Part shown: in pieces, positions 857 to 13,018 of the stretch
Layout of the letters: every line of letters begins with the position of its first letter
Position numbering within the stretch: position 1 is the stretch's first letter
Assembly (NCBI GenBank): GCA_001598975.1
Contig: BBXU01002318.1
Span: 1 to 13,727, forward strand
DNA: 13,727 bases
Direction of reading: 5' to 3'
From: Parachlorella kessleri
Lineage: Eukaryota > Chlorophyta > Trebouxiophyceae > Chlorellales > Chlorellaceae
Program-made: the position numbers and the translations under genes
Notes under the pieces: generated by a model
The model's database searches: none
Told to the model about the DNA's origin: nothing
What the model saw: only the letters and a program-made list of their open reading frames with translations

Positions 857-2097
857 GCAGGCCGGAAGTGGCTCTTCCAGCTGACCAGCCCAGCGGGGGA
901 GGGATTGTGAGTCAGTGGGGGTATAGTGGGCAGTGTTTGTGTTAGGAAAGACCTGGGGTGCGGAGATTTTATGTCTAAGCGACCCAGAACGATTGGTGAC
1001 ATCCAAGGGAACATACTTCAGGACTAATGGATGGCTTGTTACCAATGGATTGCGGCCAGTACGCCTTTGCAAAGCCTGTTTGTGCGCTGGCCAATGAACA
1101 TGCCCCAGGTGCTGCTCCTGCTACAGCCCTGCTGCCAGGGTTGAAGTGGTAGCACTGGCCAGGGGTCCTGCGGCTGCTGAGGCACATGCGAGGCACCTTG
1201 CCTCGGCCTGTCAGGACTGTTGCACCGCTGGAAGGCTGCCACAAGGGCAAGCTTTGCCTGGATGGCTTGTAAGGTAGTAAAATGGATAAATTATTAGGCT
1301 TGCCCACCATATAGCTATAATGCAGGTGACAACAGGGGTCAGATAGCAGTTTGAAGGGTGCAAGTCTCCCAAATTGTAGCCCAAGCCGCACACCAGCCCT
1401 ACGTCACCCGCCAGCAGCGCGACCAAAAAGGCTATGCTCCGACTGCAGACAATCAGCACAGCACTGAGAACCATGGGACTCAGATAGGCTACCATTAGCG
1501 TAGTGTCACAACCCAACCAAAATCCCACCTTAAAGCACTGTACAGGGCACTGACAACCTGCTTCTGCCGCAATGTCACCAGGGCAACAGCATTTACGCCA
1601 CCGTGTTCCTGCCATAAGCTTGGGGCATAACCTAGACATAGGATGCACAGCGCCAGCCCATACAGCAGGGTAGTTTTGCCCAGGGCGGCCCTCATATTGC
1701 TAGGAGGAGAGCCGTGGACACTCCTCAGCATTTCACAAGGGTTGGAGGCGGCCCGAAACTGTTGTCTGCACGTTCGAAGCTAGAAGTGGTTGGTGCAATA
1801 GAAGGACACACCAGGGGCACAAGAAATGAGTGCGGGGCAGCCACAGGCAAGGGAGCTGGTCATCAGGTGTAACAGACTAAGAATTAGAGCCAAATAAGAA
1901 AGTAATAGAAGCAAGGCACAGCACTACTCTCAACAGTTAGACACCGTCCCCGCACTGCTTGAAAGCCACACAGTCAACTAACTGCAAGGTGGCCTGCCTG
2001 CCTGTCAACTGGGCAACATCGACGCCAGTCTGTTAATGTACCCGTCACATGGCACCCACAGGTGGTCATGACAAATAATTCAATATTCCAGAGGGGT
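857..2097. other. Stretch without a convincing gene
   Basis: No exon chain with good splice sites was found here. The minus strand has overlapping frames at 1211-1731 with hydrophobic runs, such as LLYGLALCILCLGYAP near 1640-1690 and a long apolar stretch read near 1350-1500. The frames shift relative to each other and no family is recognisable. No tRNA, rRNA or mobile-element protein was seen. The right end (2040-2097) is the downstream flank of the H2B 3' hairpin. Confidence 0.5.
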
Positions 2098-2113
2098 GGT
2101 GTTTAATAACACC
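2098..2113 (-). terminator. Histone-type 3' hairpin of H2B
   Basis: Read on the H2B strand, this is GGTGTT-ATTA-AACACC: a perfect 6-bp stem with a 4-base loop, 41 bp after the stop codon. It has the geometry (6-bp stem, 4-base loop) of the hairpin that ends replication-dependent histone mRNAs in animals, though the bases differ. It is followed by ACC, four bases, then TGGAA, as at the other three histone genes. Its function is inferred from position and from its recurrence at all four genes. Confidence 0.88.
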
Positions 2114-2154: not shown

Positions 2155-2715
2155 TTAGGCGGAGGTAAACTTGGTCACGGCCTTGGTGCCCTCGGACACT
2201 GCGTGCTTGGCCAGCTCGCCGGGCAGCACCAGGCGCACGGCAGTCTGAATCTCGCGGGAGGTCAGGGTGGGCTTCTTGTTCACGCGGGCCAGCTGGGCGG
2301 CCTGGGTGGCGATCTTCTCAAACTGGTCAGCAATGAACGAGTTCAGGATGGCCATAGCCTGCACATGGGTCAAGTGCAGGAAGTGATCAGTACTGGTTCC
2401 ACTGCCAAGTTAAGATTCAGCCATCATGGTTGCATGCCATCATACAAGCACAGCGTTCCAAAAAGATGAAGGCAGGCATACAGCAGCCAACCCGATGCCC
2501 CGACTCGTGCTGGTCAGCAGCAGGCCCACCTTGCTGGAGATGCCGGTGTCCGGGTGGACCTGCTTGAGGACCTTGAAGATGTAGATCTTGTAGGACTCGA
2601 CGCCCTTGGGCTTGCCGCCCTTCTTCTTCTTGTCGCCGGTCTTCTCGGCCTTGCCCTTGGCTGCGGCCTTGGCAGGGGCCTTGCTCTCGGGCTTGGTCTC
2701 AGCCTTGGGAGCCAT
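2155..2715 (-). CDS. Histone H2B
   Basis: This is a core histone, the partner of H2A in the nucleosome. There are two exons on the minus strand: 2715-2530 (62 codons) and 2358-2155 (67 codons plus TAA), giving 129 residues. The intron (2529-2359, 171 bp) starts GTGGGC, ends TGCAG and falls between codons after GISSK. The Lys/Ala-rich tail covers about residues 1-38, and the histone fold starts at [20 protein letters not shown]. Exon 2 carries [37 protein letters not shown] and the C-terminal helix [20 protein letters not shown]. The lysine in AVTKFTSA corresponds to the conserved ubiquitination site. The start is the ATG in the context CACCATGGC, and an N-terminal MAPKAE is typical. The gene diverges from H2A across a 299-bp spacer, and a TACAAAACCC box lies 65 bp upstream. 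The tail is shorter than I remember for Chlamydomonas H2B. Confidence 0.97.
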
Positions 2716-3014: not shown

Positions 3015-3576
3015 ATGAGCGGCCGTGGCAAGGGCAAGACCGCCGGCAAGAAGGCTGTGAGCAAGTCCACCAAGGCTGGGCTGCAGTTCCCCGTGGGCCG
3101 CATTGCCCGCTACCTGAAGAAGGGCCGCTACGCTGGTGCGTCCTGGGGAAGGTTGGAGACAGGCAGCACCTTGTGATCACGGTGTTCACACCAGGCTGCA
3201 GATGGCTGTGCTGCCACGTGCAAGACTCTATGGTGCTTGCTAGACTTATGACCCCCCCCCCCCCCAACCCCCCTTCAAACCTCACAAACCCTGCCTGTTT
3301 ATGCCTGCTGCAGAGCGCATCGGTGCTGGTGCCCCCGTGTACCTGGCTGCCGTGCTGGAGTACCTGGCCGCTGAGGTGCTGGAGCTGGCTGGCAACGCCG
3401 CCCGTGACAACAAGAAGACCCGGATCGTCCCTCGCCACATCCAGCTGGCTGTGCGCAATGATGAGGAGCTGTCCAAGCTGCTGGCCGGCGTGACTATCGT
3501 CGAGGGTGGTGTGCTGCCCAACATCCACTCCGTGCTGCTGCCCAAGAAGTCCGGCAAGAAGGAGGCTGCTGAGTAA
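3015..3576 (+). CDS. Histone H2A (canonical type)
   Basis: This is a core histone that pairs with H2B and carries the nucleosome acidic patch. Exons are 3015-3135 and 3314-3576 (TAA), for 127 residues. The 178-bp intron (GTGCGT...GCTGCAG) splits a Glu codon, giving [20 protein letters not shown]. The sequence shows the tail [20 protein letters not shown], the start of the fold at [20 protein letters not shown], the acidic-patch residues in [10 protein letters not shown] and NDEEL, and the docking region [15 protein letters not shown]. The C-terminus is SGKKEAAE, with no SQ(E/D)-hydrophobic motif, so it is not H2A.X. It does not have H2A.Z features. The intron contains a run of 14 C at 3252-3265. 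The start was chosen because MSGRGKGK matches the family. Confidence 0.97.
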
Positions 3577-3610: not shown

Positions 3611-3626
3611 GGTGTAATTAAACACC
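3611..3626 (+). terminator. Histone-type 3' hairpin of H2A (variant)
   Basis: GGTGTA-ATTA-AACACC begins 34 bp after the stop codon. The sixth stem base is A where the other three genes have T, so the loop-closing pair becomes A-A. A flanking T3610-A3627 pair can lengthen the stem at its base. The change also creates TGTAA (3613-3617), the chlorophyte polyadenylation signal. It is followed by ACC, four bases and TGGAG. Confidence 0.83.
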
Positions 3627-3640
3627 ACCATTATGGAGAG

Positions 3641-4585: not shown

Positions 4586-7500
4586 ATGGCAAGGTCCCTA
4601 TTGAGGGCGCGACCCGTGTCCTCTCCGAAGCGCTGCTCTTGCCCTTGGCAGGCCCTTGTCCGCAGCACAGCATGGTCAGCTTCACACCGTAACGGGTCCA
4701 GGGCCGTGGCGTGCGCTGCGGAGGTGCATGACCCTCCTGGTGCCCATCCGCCACAAGAGCTTGCTATAGCCAGCAGCAGCAGCGCCCCAAGCGCCACTGC
4801 TGAAGCAGCAGCCGTCACAGGGGAGAAAGACGCGGAGGAGGACAACCTTGAGCCTGCTAAGGACCTGGTTGACTGGCTGTGCCAGGCTTACTCTATCACA
4901 GAGAAGCGGAGGGTGCGAGGGCCGCTGCGCAGGGCGCAGGCTGCGCTGCGGGCAGAGGACCCCGGAAGGGGGAGGCTCTCGCTGGAGAGGGACATCCTGC
5001 CCAAGCTGGAGGTGCGGTGGTCGGGGGTGGGGGGCCGCGCTGTGCTGTGCTGTGTCGTGCTGGGTGGTGAAGTGCGACGCTCAGTTGCAAGTCTCAAGCT
5101 GGAGGTGTGTAGCGTCATCTCTAAAAGGAAAGAAGGAGGTGGGAGTTGTCTGGATGGGCCGTGCCATGTTCGGCTAAAGCTAGGTGGAGCGGTAGCCCTA
5201 GAAGTGCTTGGAACCCTGGAGGTGGCACTGTCGAGTGCTGCAATGCTGTGCTGTGGTGGAGATTGATAAGTGGCGTGCGGCCGACCCTAGCAGTGGGTTG
5301 GCAGGCCGCGTGCCTGTGCTGTAGTGCTGTGCTGAGGGGAGGGAGCAGGTGGTGGCGGGCGGGGCCCCTTTTTTCAAGGCAAAATACTCTCGTGCCTAGG
5401 CTCCAGAGCGTAAGGTCCCAGCCTGGGTGGTGTGTGCGGGCTGTCTGCAAGCTGCTGCCCTTGCGACGTGCAGTTGTGGACTGCTTCTGACACTCTGTGT
5501 GCACTGCTGCAGCTGCTGGAGTCGTTAAGTGAGGGCCTGGGCTGGAAGGTGTTTGCCCGATACCCTGAGGAACTCATCCACCCGTATGCGACCGAGTACT
5601 GGGGCATCCTGGCCGCCTATCTCTTCACCACGGGGTTCTCCCCAGACAAGGTGAGCATCTTGCCTCTCACTCACCCAGAGGCTGAACCCTCCCCCAGACC
5701 TCCTTCCGTGTCAGGCTGTGGTGAGCTCGTGCAGCCAGCGCCCTGCCCAGGAAGCTGCGTTGAAGCGCTCACATTCTCCTTGCTCCCCCTTGCTTACACC
5801 CTCCATCCCGCCCGCCCTTCCCCTTCCCTCTCCTTTCACCCACGCTTGCCTCCCTTTCGCACAGAACCTCAGGCGGCACCTGTCCAGTCTTACATCCCGA
5901 TGTGCGCTCTGTTCCCAAGCAGACATTATGTCTCTATCTGCCCAAGTGCTGCGCTTCCTTTACCAAGGCAGCCACCCCTCCTGCCCCCCCTCGCTCCCTC
6001 GCAGATCTCCACCCTCTTCTCCCGCCACCCCTGCCTGTTTGGCCACGTGGTGCGCTCCCCCGACAACCTGCGCCGCCTGTTTGGCTGGCTGCGGGAGCTG
6101 GGGCTGGGCCAGGGGGACGTCCTGCGTCTGGTCGACCGCCTGCCGCTGCTGCTGCAGACAGATGTAGAGGCAGGTGGGTGGCGGCGCGGCGGGCATCGGG
6201 GTGGGAGGGGGGGCGCAAACGTGTACAGCTGCTTGCAGGCATGGTCGGTTGGGCGCTGGGGTGATGGTCTTAGAGGGGGATGCTGTGGGTGGCTGGTGGG
6301 CATTGCTCCAGTAGCTGACAGGGGATGCGACGGCTGTTGTTGGCTATTGGAGTGTAAGCGGCAGCAGGCACGCGGGGCAATGACATGCGGGGCTTAGGCT
6401 GTCGCCGCCGCCGCTGTTGCGTTCACCATCCAGGCAGTGTCACTTACACAAGCCGTTTCAGGACCCAGCGCACTTCTCTCCCCGGCTCCCCGTTGTTGTT
6501 TTGGTTGCTGCTGCGCTGCTGAATCCCCCCGGCTGGGCCCCAAGTGGGGTTGTCGCCGGCCTCTGCTCTTCTGTGGGGAAAATCAAACTCATAGGTAAAG
6601 TGCCGCTCTTTACGGTCCCTGGCGAGACTGCTCCAGCCCGGCAGGAACCTGCACCAACCGTAGAGTTGTCCTACGCATCTTGCGGCAATCTCCCAAGTAG
6701 CCTCCTCACCATCTTGCTGTGCAGTGCTCAAGCCGAGGGTGGGCGCCCTGGTGGGGCTGGGGCTGCCCCTGCCTAAGGTGGTGACAGCGGTGAAGAGGCA
6801 GCCGGAGCTTCTTGGGGTGGACTCGGAGGTTGTACAATTGCGGGTTGACTACCTGGAAGGGTGAGTATGGTAGCTAGTCGAATACCGCAAGCCTGGGAGG
6901 GCTTGCTGGCCCGCCTGCGGGCAGGTTCCACGTGAAGGGGAGTGGGACTAGTTTATAAACTCCGGTTATGATATGAGGTGATGCCGCTGAGGCTTGGCCG
7001 TTTGAGAGGGTAAGCCCATGGTGCCTGAGGGAGGACTGGGGTAGGTTTGTGAAGGCTGGCGGGCGGGCATGCGAAAGGGTGAGGGGTTTGGGAGCTTTAG
7101 AGGCTCACATCAACTAGGTCACAGCTGAGGAAGGACGCTGCCTGGGTAGGTAATGTTTGTGCGGGGCTTGTGGGTCTTGTGCTTTAATAAGGAAGTTGGG
7201 TGAGTCAAGGGTGCAGTGTCGGCACCCAGCAGCAAAAGTCTCCAAGGTATCCTGTAGAGGAATCTACGCCTCTCAGATATTTGGACTACCTTGTACGGCG
7301 AGAAGCAGGTCTTCGTCCCGCCCACGCGCAGCATGAGTATTTTTGGGTTGTGTGCCCCCAGGTAATTGATGTGGCCCCTGCAAACTGGGCCGCCAGAGCC
7401 GGCCCAAGGTCTTTCATACTGGTGTGGGAACACAGTGCTTGCATTTCTCACTATGCTCAGCTGTACACTAAACGGGTGCTGCCCCTCTGTGCCCGCAGGC

Positions 7501-9467
7501 TGGGCCTGAGCCGCCGCGATGTGTGTCGCCTGCTGGCCTCCGACCCCGCCCTCTTTGTGATGAGCCCCCAGGACAAGTTTGGCCCCATGGTGGATTTCTT
7601 ACGCCACGAGCTGGGCTGTGGCGACCCTCTCCTGCGAAAGCTGGTGCGGGCCGGGCTCCTGGGGCGGCGAGTGGACACCCTGCGGGTAGGTGTGCACCTT
7701 GTGGAGAGGGTGACGACTGAGACCCACCTCCCAGAGCTTCATCCCATGCTGGGGTCGCACCCCGCCTGCTGGCCGGCTTGTGTCTGCCAATTTTTCCCAC
7801 AGCCGCCTCTCTCAACTGCTCGCCTCCTGCCCTCTGGTAACCCATGCAAAGTGAAGCAGCGCCAAGTGGACCCCACTGACCCCCTTCCCCATGCCCTGCT
7901 GCAGGCTTCACCAAGTCCAAAAGTCCAAAGGTCATGCATTAAACTACCTGTATGTACAACCGGCTGCAGGCGCGGGCTGACTGCTGGCGGCAGATGGGTT
8001 TCTCTCCGGACCAGCTGCTGCGCATGCTGTCCTCCTGCCCCCGCCTGCTGCTGTACCCCGTCCAGCAGCCGCAGTACCAGGCCAAGCTGCGGTACCTGAC
8101 GGAGGTACTGCTGAGGCCGCTGTCCAGCCTGGAGTCCTTCCCACAGGTACTGCTGGGGGTACCGCCTGCTAAGCAAGACACCGTTGAGGTTGCTGGCATG
8201 CTCACACCAAGAGTGAGCCAAAGGTCGGGGTTGTGATGGCCGCTGGTGTGTGTGTGTGGGGGGGGGGTCAGCGCCAAGCTAAGCCATGGTCCCTGGCTTT
8301 CGCCCTGCGGCAGGCGACGGGCGGACTCTGCCCTGCTAGCGGCCAACCCAGACCTCCTTCCCTTGTGCCGATATGGCTGCGTCATGCGTGGGGTTGAGTG
8401 ATCGGGGAGTTCCCACCTCGCTGCATGGGGCTGCATGTGAGTGGCAGTGGCAGATTGTGTGAGCCACTGGGCGGAGTTGCATTTCTTTACACTTGGGGCT
8501 GGCAGGGCAGGGTAGCTACTGCCTGCTCCTAGTGCGGCTGGCAGATTCTACCACATCTAGGGTTTGGTATGCTACTATTGATACTTGGGGCTGGCAGGGC
8601 AGGGTAGCCAACTGCCGCTGCCTGCCGTGCTGCTGCAGTACATCTCGTACTCGCTGGAGGACCGAATCAAGCTGCGGGCAGCGGCGGCTGCACAGCTGGC
8701 AGGGCAGAGGATCGGGTTGTCAGAGTTGGCCAAGTCAGGTGGGTGCAGCATGCTGTTGTGATTGTACATGGTCGATAGAGGGGATTCCTGCGTCATGCAT
8801 GTGGGGACCGCAGGAGCGGGGGGTCTGCTCATGGTCTGCACCTTTCGGCTGGGCGTGTGGGTTGCTCAGCCCCTGACACCCTCAGGGCCTGTCTGGGTAG
8901 TTGCATTCTTGTTGTTGGTGGCAGGCTGTAAGGGTGTGTTCCTCAGACCCCAAGATGCTGGGTAGATGTTCGTTTTTATTTGCTGGGGGCAGACGGTGGG
9001 AGTTCGGAGAGAACTGTACGAGCAGGGCTGGATGCAGGGTGGCTCGCCTGACTCTTCTCTCCTCTCTCATAGCACAGCACTGCGAAGCCAGCCTAGGTGA
9101 CTGATGATACCCTGCTGCCGCTGCCTTAGATGAGGCCTTCTGCCGGGGCCAAGGCATCGCTGTGGAGGCCTACGGCAAGTTTGTGGCGGCCTGGGAGGGA
9201 CGGCACGGCACAGCGCAGCACAGCACAGCGGGTGCACCAGAGGAGGCTGCTGGGGCTGGAGCTGCCACACTTGAAGGCTATTGTGAAGGAGGCAGTGCGG
9301 CAGCGGCGGCTGAGGCGGCGGCAGCACCGGGCCTAGCCTGGCAACACGGCGTGGGGAGTGCTCCAGCGGGCGAGGCGGCGGCGGCAGCTGCTTCGATGGA
9401 TGGGAGTAGCTCAGGACCTCAGCAGATGCGGCGAGGGCAGCAGCGGCGGCAGCAGCAGCAGCAGTGA
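4586..9467 (+). CDS. mTERF-family protein, probably chloroplast-targeted
   Basis: Family members bind organelle nucleic acid through tandem helical mTERF repeats and act in organelle transcription, termination or RNA processing. Exons supported by phase and splice sites: 4586-5011, 5513-5650, 6005-6173, 6725-6860, 7499-7685, 7970-8146, 8639-8738 and 9130-9467 (TGA). A small exon near 7803-7836 (RLSQLLASCPL) fits the repeat pattern and its donor, but not the phase of the exon before it. The product is about 565 residues. The N-terminus MARSLLRARPVSSPKRC... reaches SRAVACAAEV, a chloroplast-type cleavage context. Repeat signatures follow: GLGLPLPKVVTAVKRQPELL, GLSRRDVCRLLASDPALF, then GFSPDQLLRMLSSCPRLLLY. 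The family's C-terminal block spans exons as ESFPQ + YISYSLEDRIKLR and ELAKS + DEAF. The tail (about the last 80 residues) is Ala/Gln low-complexity. The start is the ATG in GCCATGGC; an in-frame ATG at 4382 is possible but less likely. The exact member is not identifiable. Confidence 0.87.
7686..7969 (+). other. Unresolved exon region of the mTERF gene
   Basis: The exon ending CTGCGG|GTAGGT at 7685 ends in phase 0. The next protein-like segment, RLSQLLASCPL (7804-7836), follows acceptor CACAG at 7798-7802 and donor GTAACC at 7837, but its frame needs phase 2 before it. It joins in phase to the exon at 7970. The expected product, by analogy with LKPRVGALVGLGL earlier in the protein, would read close to TLRPRLSQLL. 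Explanations are an unusual splice site, a one-base error, or a true frameshift. A second possible segment, HQVQKSKGHALNYLY near 7907-7953, is also out of phase. Confidence 0.6.
8491..8608. repeat. 26-bp direct repeat in an mTERF intron
   Basis: A 26-bp sequence beginning ACTTGGGGCTGGCAGGGCAG occurs exactly at 8491-8516 and 8583-8608, 92 bp apart. The second copy ends 30 bp before the exon that starts at 8639. Both lie in the intron 8147-8638. Confidence 0.85.
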
Positions 9468-10033: not shown

Positions 10034-10137
10034 ATAACTCAGGCAAGACTCAGGCTCATTCTGCATCCAGCCCTGTCAGTCCAGTCCAGCCCAGCTCTAT
10101 TCCCTGTTTCCATTACCTGCCACCCTTGCTAATATCA
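10034..10137 (+). repeat. Dispersed repeat, direct copy
   Basis: It shares GGCAAGACTC, then TGCATCCAGCCCTGTCAG (18 bp exact), then CCCTGT...TACCTGCCACCCTT with the copy at 12434-12528. The family is about 90-105 bp and does not code for protein. Confidence 0.7.
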
Positions 10138-10598: not shown

Positions 10599-10659
10599 GC
10601 AGCTGGTTCATACAAGCTAAAGGCGGTAAAGATTTTACACGTGTGCATTCCAAATAGGT

Positions 10660-10675
10660 GGTGTTGAATAACACC
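10660..10675 (-). terminator. Histone-type 3' hairpin of H4
   Basis: On the H4 strand it reads GGTGTT-ATTC-AACACC: a perfect 6-bp stem with loop ATTC, where H2A, H2B and H3 have ATTA. It lies 53 bp after the stop codon. It is followed by ACC, four bases and TGGAATG, nearly the same as at H2B. Confidence 0.88.
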
Positions 10676-10728: not shown

Positions 10729-12239
<1,511 letters not shown>

Positions 12240-12296: not shown

Positions 12297-12312
12297 GGTG
12301 TTATTAAACACC
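12297..12312 (+). terminator. Histone-type 3' hairpin of H3
   Basis: GGTGTT-ATTA-AACACC, with an extra flanking T-A pair, gives a 7-bp stem. It lies 57 bp after the stop codon. ACC, three bases and TGGAT follow. The five bases before the stem (AACTG, 12293-12297 overlapping its first G) match those at H2A. Confidence 0.88.
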
Positions 12313-13018
12313 ACCTCTTGGATAAAATGTCGCCTTACAACCCATGCTTCAAAGGTAGTCTGCCCATGCAAGGCATCCAGCCCTGTTACTTCACAGCTAC
12401 CTTTTCCAGTTGCACACTCTTGCCATCGTGCGCAAAACTCCGGCAAGACTCGGAACGTTCTGCATCCAGCCCTGTCAGCACAGCTCACTTCTCACTCCCT
12501 GTCTGCACTACCTGCCACCCTTACTAAAGTTGCCTGGATTCCTGCTAACGCAGTCTCTGTCAAGGGAGGGTGTCTGGACCATGACAGTGTCCAAAGTTGC
12601 TGGTTTCAATTTTTTATGTCAACAGTAGCGCGATGTTTGCAGTGGTTGCTACACGTTATGCTAGACACGTAGCATACGTAGTTGTGGAGGAACAGGGTAG
12701 CTCTGAGCTGGGGCCTGCTTAGGGACCCGGGGTGATCAAGCCCGTTCTCTCTGAGCCGCGGCCCTGACTCACCACTGCTCGTACCAAAGCGTCCTACAAG
12801 GCCGGCCCATGGCAACTCTCGGACGGATATCGCCAGTAGACCTTGGCCTACCCGGGGTAGAACCTTATCAGAGAATATACTAGGTCCAGCTCAACTCTAG
12901 CTGCACCGGTAACTGTGGGCAAGGAAGCGAGGATACTTCCCAAGGGGCATGCCAAGGGGGCCTGACTAGACCGGTCGCCACCAAAGGTATTCGTTCCTCC
13001 CTTTTATAACACGGAGTC
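12313..13018. other. Intergenic region 3' of H3
   Basis: No gene was recognised. The first 220 bases hold two tandem copies of the dispersed repeat also found beyond H4. The remainder (12530-13018) has no feature I can name. A TTTTATAA sequence occurs at 13002-13009. Confidence 0.5.
12369..12528 (+). repeat. Dispersed repeat, two tandem copies
   Basis: GCATCCAGCCCTGT occurs at 12373 and again at 12462, a period of 89 bp. The second copy (12434-12528) is closest to the one at 10034-10137; the first is more diverged (CTTCACAGCTACC for CAGCACAGCTCAC). Confidence 0.65.

Follow-up and report, generated by a model that had tools for sequence, protein, structure and literature searches.

The window, which is the whole 13,727-nt stretch of Parachlorella kessleri DNA analysed here, lies within contig C1242 and carries four histone genes, each followed by a hairpin, the trinucleotide ACC and, a few bases further on, TGGA. 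The ends of the H2B, H2A and H3 genes were read by eye, and the H4 gene is named from our reading of its frame, which matches the Pfam Histone model at 19.9 bits, under the Pfam cut-off. The features are as follows.

2155..2715, minus strand: histone H2B gene, intron-containing
2098..2113, minus strand: H2B 3' hairpin, GGTGTTATTAAACACC (Rfam Histone3, 26.3 bits, under the gathering score of 34)
2095..2097, minus strand: ACC 3' of the H2B hairpin
2086..2090, minus strand: proposed H2B downstream element TGGAA (full reading ACC-CCTC-TGGAA, 2097-2086)
3015..3576, plus strand: histone H2A gene, intron-containing
3611..3626, plus strand: H2A 3' hairpin, GGTGTAATTAAACACC, with a single A.A mismatch in the stem
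3627..3629, plus strand: H2A ACC
3634..3638, plus strand: proposed H2A downstream element TGGAG (full reading ACC-ATTA-TGGAG, 3627-3638)
10729..11259, minus strand: histone H4 gene, intron-containing
10660..10675, minus strand: H4 3' hairpin, GGTGTTATTCAACACC (Rfam match under the gathering score)
10657..10659, minus strand: H4 ACC
10648..10652, minus strand: proposed H4 downstream element TGGAA (full reading ACC-TATT-TGGAA, 10659-10648)
11662..12239, plus strand: histone H3 gene, intron-containing
12297..12312, plus strand: H3 3' hairpin, GGTGTTATTAAACACC (Rfam match under the gathering score)
12313..12315, plus strand: H3 ACC
12319..12323, plus strand: proposed H3 downstream element TGGAT, at a spacing of 3 (full reading ACC-TCT-TGGAT, 12313-12323)

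The hairpins have the histone form of a 6-bp stem, a 4-nt loop and an ACC-type 3' flank, with one stem mismatch in that of H2A. Three of them score 24.8-26.3 bits with the Rfam model RF00032, under its gathering score of 34, and the H2A hairpin was not reported at E<=1. When the sequence was re-read, the four sites proved to be as an earlier, sequence-only reading had written them, with four bases between ACC and TGGA in H2B, H4 and H2A, and three in H3.

We note three other features of the window. By our reading of interrupted reading frames, all four histone genes have introns, unlike animal replication-dependent histone genes, which are usually intronless. Reading frames on the plus strand at about 5500-9460 resemble, again by our reading, an mTERF-type gene; three pieces of this region searched against Pfam gave no matches. 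Finally, a dispersed repeat (CATCCAGCCCTGTCAG ... CCTGCCACCC) was recognised by eye at 10064-10125 and 12460-12520, and also at a locus elsewhere (L397).

Histone hairpins and their 3' flanks across the genome

Our survey of histone 3' ends covered one genome, that of the window (50,861,048 bases in 1642 contigs), using two hairpin patterns, the first of which gave 48 exact places and the second, looser one 66 places without mismatch. We read 53 hairpins, namely 52 of the 66 found with the looser pattern (14 with unlike loops were left out) and one found with the first pattern. Forty-eight of the 53 lie downstream of histone genes (12 H2A, 12 H3, 12 H4, 10 H2B and two H1, the last two unclassed at first and later read as H1); these 48 do not coincide with the 48 places given by the first pattern, and they form an exact-pattern set that genes with more diverged hairpins would escape. 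The five non-histone hairpins (L028, L029, L037, L038 and L039) were excluded from the counts.

The sequence-only reading had held that it would be contradicted if TGGA were not conserved at this distance in the genome's other histone genes; we found the opposite. All 48 histone hairpins have ACC directly after the stem, and all 48 have GGA after ACC at a spacing of 3-5 plus one base. The spacing is 4 in 39 cases, 5 in seven and 3 in two. The H3 gene of the window, with a spacing of 3, is an outlier beside its 11 H3 paralogues, which have 4 (seven genes) or 5 (four genes). With the spacing allowed to vary, GGAA is present in 43 of the 48 flanks and TGGA in 37; the invariant core of the element is thus GGA, which refines the TGGA(A) originally proposed. 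Read in a fixed register from the stem, C predominates at +4 (34 of the 48 flanks) and at +5 (33 flanks), and the element itself appears as T at +8 (36/48), G at +9 (44/48), G at +10 (46/48), A at +11 (40/48) and A at +12 (45/48). We detected no conservation beyond +12 in the 48 histone flanks, the information being at most 0.21 bits at every position from +13 onward.

The controls gave far lower counts. Elsewhere in these flanks, a 3-base window holds GGA in a mean of 0.98 of the 48, and in three at most. The exact hairpin pattern had no matches in viral contigs; the looser pattern matched at least 120 stretches there, and a hairpin scan of genome contigs gave at least 120. From 240 viral and bacterial stretches, which we assumed to be chance matches and used as background only, we obtained 204 distinct control hairpins after removing repeats and cut-off ends, of which seven have GGA at the position of the element and three have GGAA. 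Among the five non-histone hairpins of the same genome, GGA stands at the element's place in one, L028. This hairpin, at 938 on the minus strand of its stretch, is of histone type, with GGA at the usual distance, and no histone gene was found in the 700 bases upstream of it; it may perhaps belong to a decayed histone gene, or to another gene with such an end. Conversely, six histone-family stretches (L031-L036) are without such a hairpin: an H3 gene on C1279, H3-like frames on C824 and C1487, and further matches on C64, C54 and C717. Of the 13 strong H3 C-terminal exons, 12 have the hairpin, the exception being that on C1279.

The 48 genes are paralogues and many are clustered, as would be expected if the hairpin and GGAA had spread jointly by duplication or gene conversion and GGAA had no function of its own. 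We compared the flanks with one another to assess this. Grouping them at 0.70 identity, a threshold above the 99% level of shuffled flanks (0.674; median 0.587, 95% level 0.652), yields 34 groups. Lower thresholds of 0.55-0.65 merge nearly all flanks, into 1, 1 and 4 groups; the four groups are those at 0.65, a level that 5% of shuffles reach. Moreover, positions +4 to +8 and those from +13 onward vary between genes, and the element is common to five histone gene types. Joint copying thus seems to us barely credible. Given GGA in 48 of 48 flanks, the low control counts and the 34 flank groups, it is most likely that the element is kept by selection rather than carried along through copying. 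Judged by this conservation, the histone genes have a genuine, if very short, downstream element, (T)GGAA at +8 to +12.

We considered what might read such an element. The animal histone downstream element (HDE) is likewise found downstream of the hairpin and its short ACC-type tail, and likewise has a purine core; the ACC of the alga fits the position of that tail, making it a putative site of cleavage. The sea urchin element, CAAGAAAGA, occupies a similar position. The algal element differs from the animal HDE in that it has only 4-5 bases (GGAA/TGGAA) at a nearly fixed spacing, and no longer purine tract. These same differences would suit recognition of GGAA by a protein, either a cleavage factor or an extended footprint of SLBP or of the exonuclease, with any U7-type proteins serving another RNA; we regard this as the main rival to a U7-type mechanism, and as unlikely. 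A further alternative is that GGAA, downstream of histone genes, helps to terminate transcription or serves as a binding site in the DNA. The element does lie beyond the likely mRNA end, and we infer, rather than observe, that it acts at the RNA level; nonetheless, its strand and its distance to the hairpin are nearly fixed in 48 of 48 cases, which a DNA site would not need, and we consider a DNA-level role improbable.

Genes for SLBP and probable U7-type Sm proteins

Two exons on C291 match PF15247 separately (7.9e-13 and 4.5e-12), and when they are joined the SLBP RNA-binding domain is matched at 9.9e-30, which identifies, at the level of protein similarity, an SLBP gene in the same genome as the element. 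There are also 14 LSM matches in the genome, and for one of these, a gene on C144 (L289), the best PDB match is LSm11 of U7 snRNP structures (4e-10, versus 1.1e-5 for SmD2). A profile built from L289 and 11 relatives again favours LSm11 (6e-18, versus 2.6e-11 for SmD2). The relatives of L289 number 17 proteins, one of them, from Chlorella sorokiniana, named U7 snRNA-associated Sm LSm11. With an Sm domain of the LSm11 kind, L289 is by homology an LSm11 gene.

Similarity to LSm11 may extend beyond the Sm domain. The Chlorella protein (P0007) also aligns with the N-terminus of LSm11 over chain residues 24-58, or about 13-47 of the full-length protein by an offset of 11 between chains, although this is a weak match (15.9 bits, i-Evalue 0.088). 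The aligned stretch overlaps residues 20-50, through which, according to PMC7026596, animal LSm11 binds FLASH and thereby docks the histone cleavage complex. A similar N-terminal motif lies upstream in L289 and is common to L289 and four relatives; the precomputed domain of the relatives is PF28412. That the LSm11 family of the alga seems to keep, if weakly, a stretch resembling the FLASH-binding one argues against recognition of GGAA by a protein.

A second Sm-type gene, on C899 (L286), has LSm10 as its best match (3.1e-9), with LSm2 close behind (1.1e-8). For a close relative of L286 the values are 1.5e-11 for LSm10 and 1e-8 for LSm2, and a profile of L286 with 17 of its 21 relatives gives 2.3e-15 for LSm10 and 4.7e-14 for LSm2. 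The names given to relatives by their sources are divided: P0034, a close relative left out of the profile, is named LSm2, and P0038, from Tetrabaena socialis, is named LSm10, yet scores slightly better with LSm2. In favour of LSm10, the nearest alternatives, LSm2 (9.1e-27), SmD1 (6.9e-30) and SmD3 (2.9e-11), are encoded by separate genes in this genome. L286 is probably LSm10, an assignment that we make with good but not full confidence given the narrow margin over LSm2.

A homologue of LSm11 and a probable LSm10 in one genome are points of likeness to the U7 snRNP, as may be the N-terminal motif of the LSm11 family, weak match though it is. Strict conservation in 48 of 48 genes (as the GGA core), alongside genes for SLBP, LSm11 and probably LSm10, provides good support for the original suggestion of TGGA(A) as the algal equivalent of the animal downstream element.

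The search for a U7-like RNA

The sequence-only reading had also called for a small RNA complementary to TGGAA, and the search gave one candidate, on C1173, which has UUCCA at its predicted start and no Rfam U7 match. Searching the genome with the Rfam U7 model RF00066 (65 of 5463 candidates scored) gave four weak matches, none over the cut-off, the best having 24.3 bits versus the 34 required; 12 of 14 control genomes also gave matches. The combination of UUCC with a U7-type Sm site was no commoner than in reversed controls (10 vs 14 and 37 vs 56), and when the flanks of all 47 such matches were scanned, none had both a promoter element at the expected distance and a good hairpin. Three loci were considered and rejected as U7 candidates. 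L303 has a promoter element with one mismatch, but this lies 98 bases before TTCC; L306 looks plastid by a psbT match; and L302, the 5' part of which resembles animal U7 by eye, is without a promoter element and without a C-rich flank.

The promoter element just mentioned comes from the snRNA genes of the genome itself. There are seven matches to U1, U2 and U5, three of them (U1) just under the Rfam cut-off. Six of the seven (L308, L309, L311, L312, L313 and L314, covering U1, U2 and U5) have CCCATAAC[CT]C upstream, with CCATAA at -67 to -69; the remaining match, to a U2 on C1025 whose 5' end is divergent, does not appear among the motif sites. The same six genes are followed by C-rich DNA, with 0.65-0.90 C in the best 20 bases (at least 0.70 in five and 0.65 in one). 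CCCATAAC[CT]C is apparently the algal snRNA promoter element. The U1 and U2 genes L308, L309 and L312-L314 have Sm-like sites that read AATCTTTG or ATTCTTTG, instead of AATTTTTG.

As MCCCATAACYC, the motif has 94 sites in the genome, six of which are the known snRNA genes, versus 88 in reversed controls, so that most of the sites are chance. Of the 88 others, we tested 85, setting aside one at the end of C1024 and two shortened by contig ends. TTCC stands at the expected RNA start in eight of the 85, and TTCC with an Sm-like site in one, where 0.27 would be expected from shuffles. A C-rich flank of at least 0.70 follows four of the 85, the highest value, 0.85, being that of the candidate on C1173. 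Elsewhere among the motif sites, L440 and L441 (with contig-end copies L327 and L388) share the promoter element, with partial conservation of a stretch further downstream; compared with Rfam, they gave chance-level matches only, and we list them as a candidate small RNA or repeat family.

At the C1173 site (L378/L439), the single one of the 85 that combines TTCC with an Sm-like site, the promoter element is at the right distance from TTCCA, which stands at the expected RNA start and is followed by AAATTTCTTACTG, a GCAGG/CCTGC hairpin and the C-rich flank. The predicted RNA would thus have UUCCA, AAUUUCU and a 3' hairpin with a 5-bp stem; it would be short, at about 42-45 nt. The -67 rule puts its predicted start at or inside UUCC; the predicted 5' end lies at or near UUCCAAAUUUCUUACUGCAG. 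Like the animal U7 RNA, it has a 5' arm beside an Sm-like site and a 3' hairpin. Unlike animal U7, it is shorter, has the Sm-like sequence AAUUUCUUA instead of the U7-type AAUUUGUCU, and gave no match to RF00066 at E<=10. Ranked by element-specific pairing, the candidate comes first among the 85 sites, which is not an independent test because TTCC had drawn attention to the site. Against the 48 flanks, its pairing energy averages -6.9 kcal/mol, a value that none of 200 shuffles of the 5' end reach (best shuffle, -6.8). This combination of features is suggestive only, because the criteria were in part set after the candidate had been seen, and we therefore treat the C1173 RNA as a candidate U7-like RNA. 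For the main rival, in which a protein reads GGAA, the two results of this search pull in opposite directions: the lack of an Rfam U7 match, in the genome or for the candidate, is in its favour, and the existence of a candidate whose expected 5' end carries UUCCA counts against it.

A possible mechanism and its age

In our judgement, the best explanation of these observations, and a fairly probable one, is that a U7-type snRNP recognises a minimal histone downstream element. We propose that SLBP would bind the hairpin of the histone pre-mRNA, and that a U7-type snRNP, with LSm10 and LSm11 replacing SmD1 and SmD2 in its ring, would be anchored beside the hairpin by pairing of 4-5 bases, UGGAA with UUCCA at the 5' end of the snRNA. 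The polyadenylation endonuclease would then be brought in via the N-terminus of LSm11, and the cut would fall between ACC and GGAA, as in animals. What the sequence itself shows is the element with its strict position, the genes for SLBP and LSm11 and the probable LSm10 gene; we infer from there to the pairing, the choice of the C1173 RNA, the cleavage site and the part of the polyadenylation enzyme. Counting against this mechanism are the lack of an Rfam U7 match, the control-level frequency of UUCC with a U7-type Sm site, the shortness of the candidate and its 5-bp stem, the weak N-terminal match of LSm11 and the slim margin of LSm10 over LSm2; pairing over 5 bases is also weak beside that of animal U7, which pairs through a 5' stretch of about 15 nt (PMC7026596). 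If the RNA starts near UUCC, its pairing arm would barely exceed the element in length, and this would account for the conservation of UGGAA alone. The sequence-only reading, taken as a whole, is partly supported.

PMC7026596 calls the U7 snRNP metazoan-specific. By contrast, the element and the U7 protein parts described here suggest that the U7 machine is older than animals. Indeed, we lean slightly towards the view that U7-directed histone processing is no animal invention, and that green algae have a minimal form of it, consisting of LSm10, LSm11, SLBP and a U7-like RNA, about 43 nt long, with a 5' arm of little more than UUCCA ahead of the Sm site. If this is true, U7 processing would already have existed in the ancestor that plants and animals share, and land plants would have lost it, and a short UUCCA arm before the Sm site would explain an element of 4-5 bases.

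Davila Lopez and Samuelsson (RNA, 2008) reportedly surveyed early histone 3'-end processing, and their work may hold part of this finding. Among the matches listed in our literature search, we recognised no report of an algal U7 or downstream element; subscription papers were mostly outside its scope, and such a report may have been published. Nor did the literature searched offer an explanation of the machine that forms hairpin histone mRNA ends in green algae. PMC6827988 gives Volvox and Chlamydomonas as exceptions among plants in having hairpin histone mRNAs (citing Muller et al., 1990 and Fabry et al., 1995); the histone genes of the alga studied here likewise carry a hairpin, which would stand in for polyadenylation. 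An LSm11 of Chlorella and an LSm10 of Tetrabaena are already named as such in public records. Finding the element in a chlorophyte that also has LSm11, SLBP and a probable LSm10 makes it possible to test directly, for instance in Chlamydomonas, whether U7 has a deep origin, and our analysis names both a candidate RNA and the exact bases of the element.
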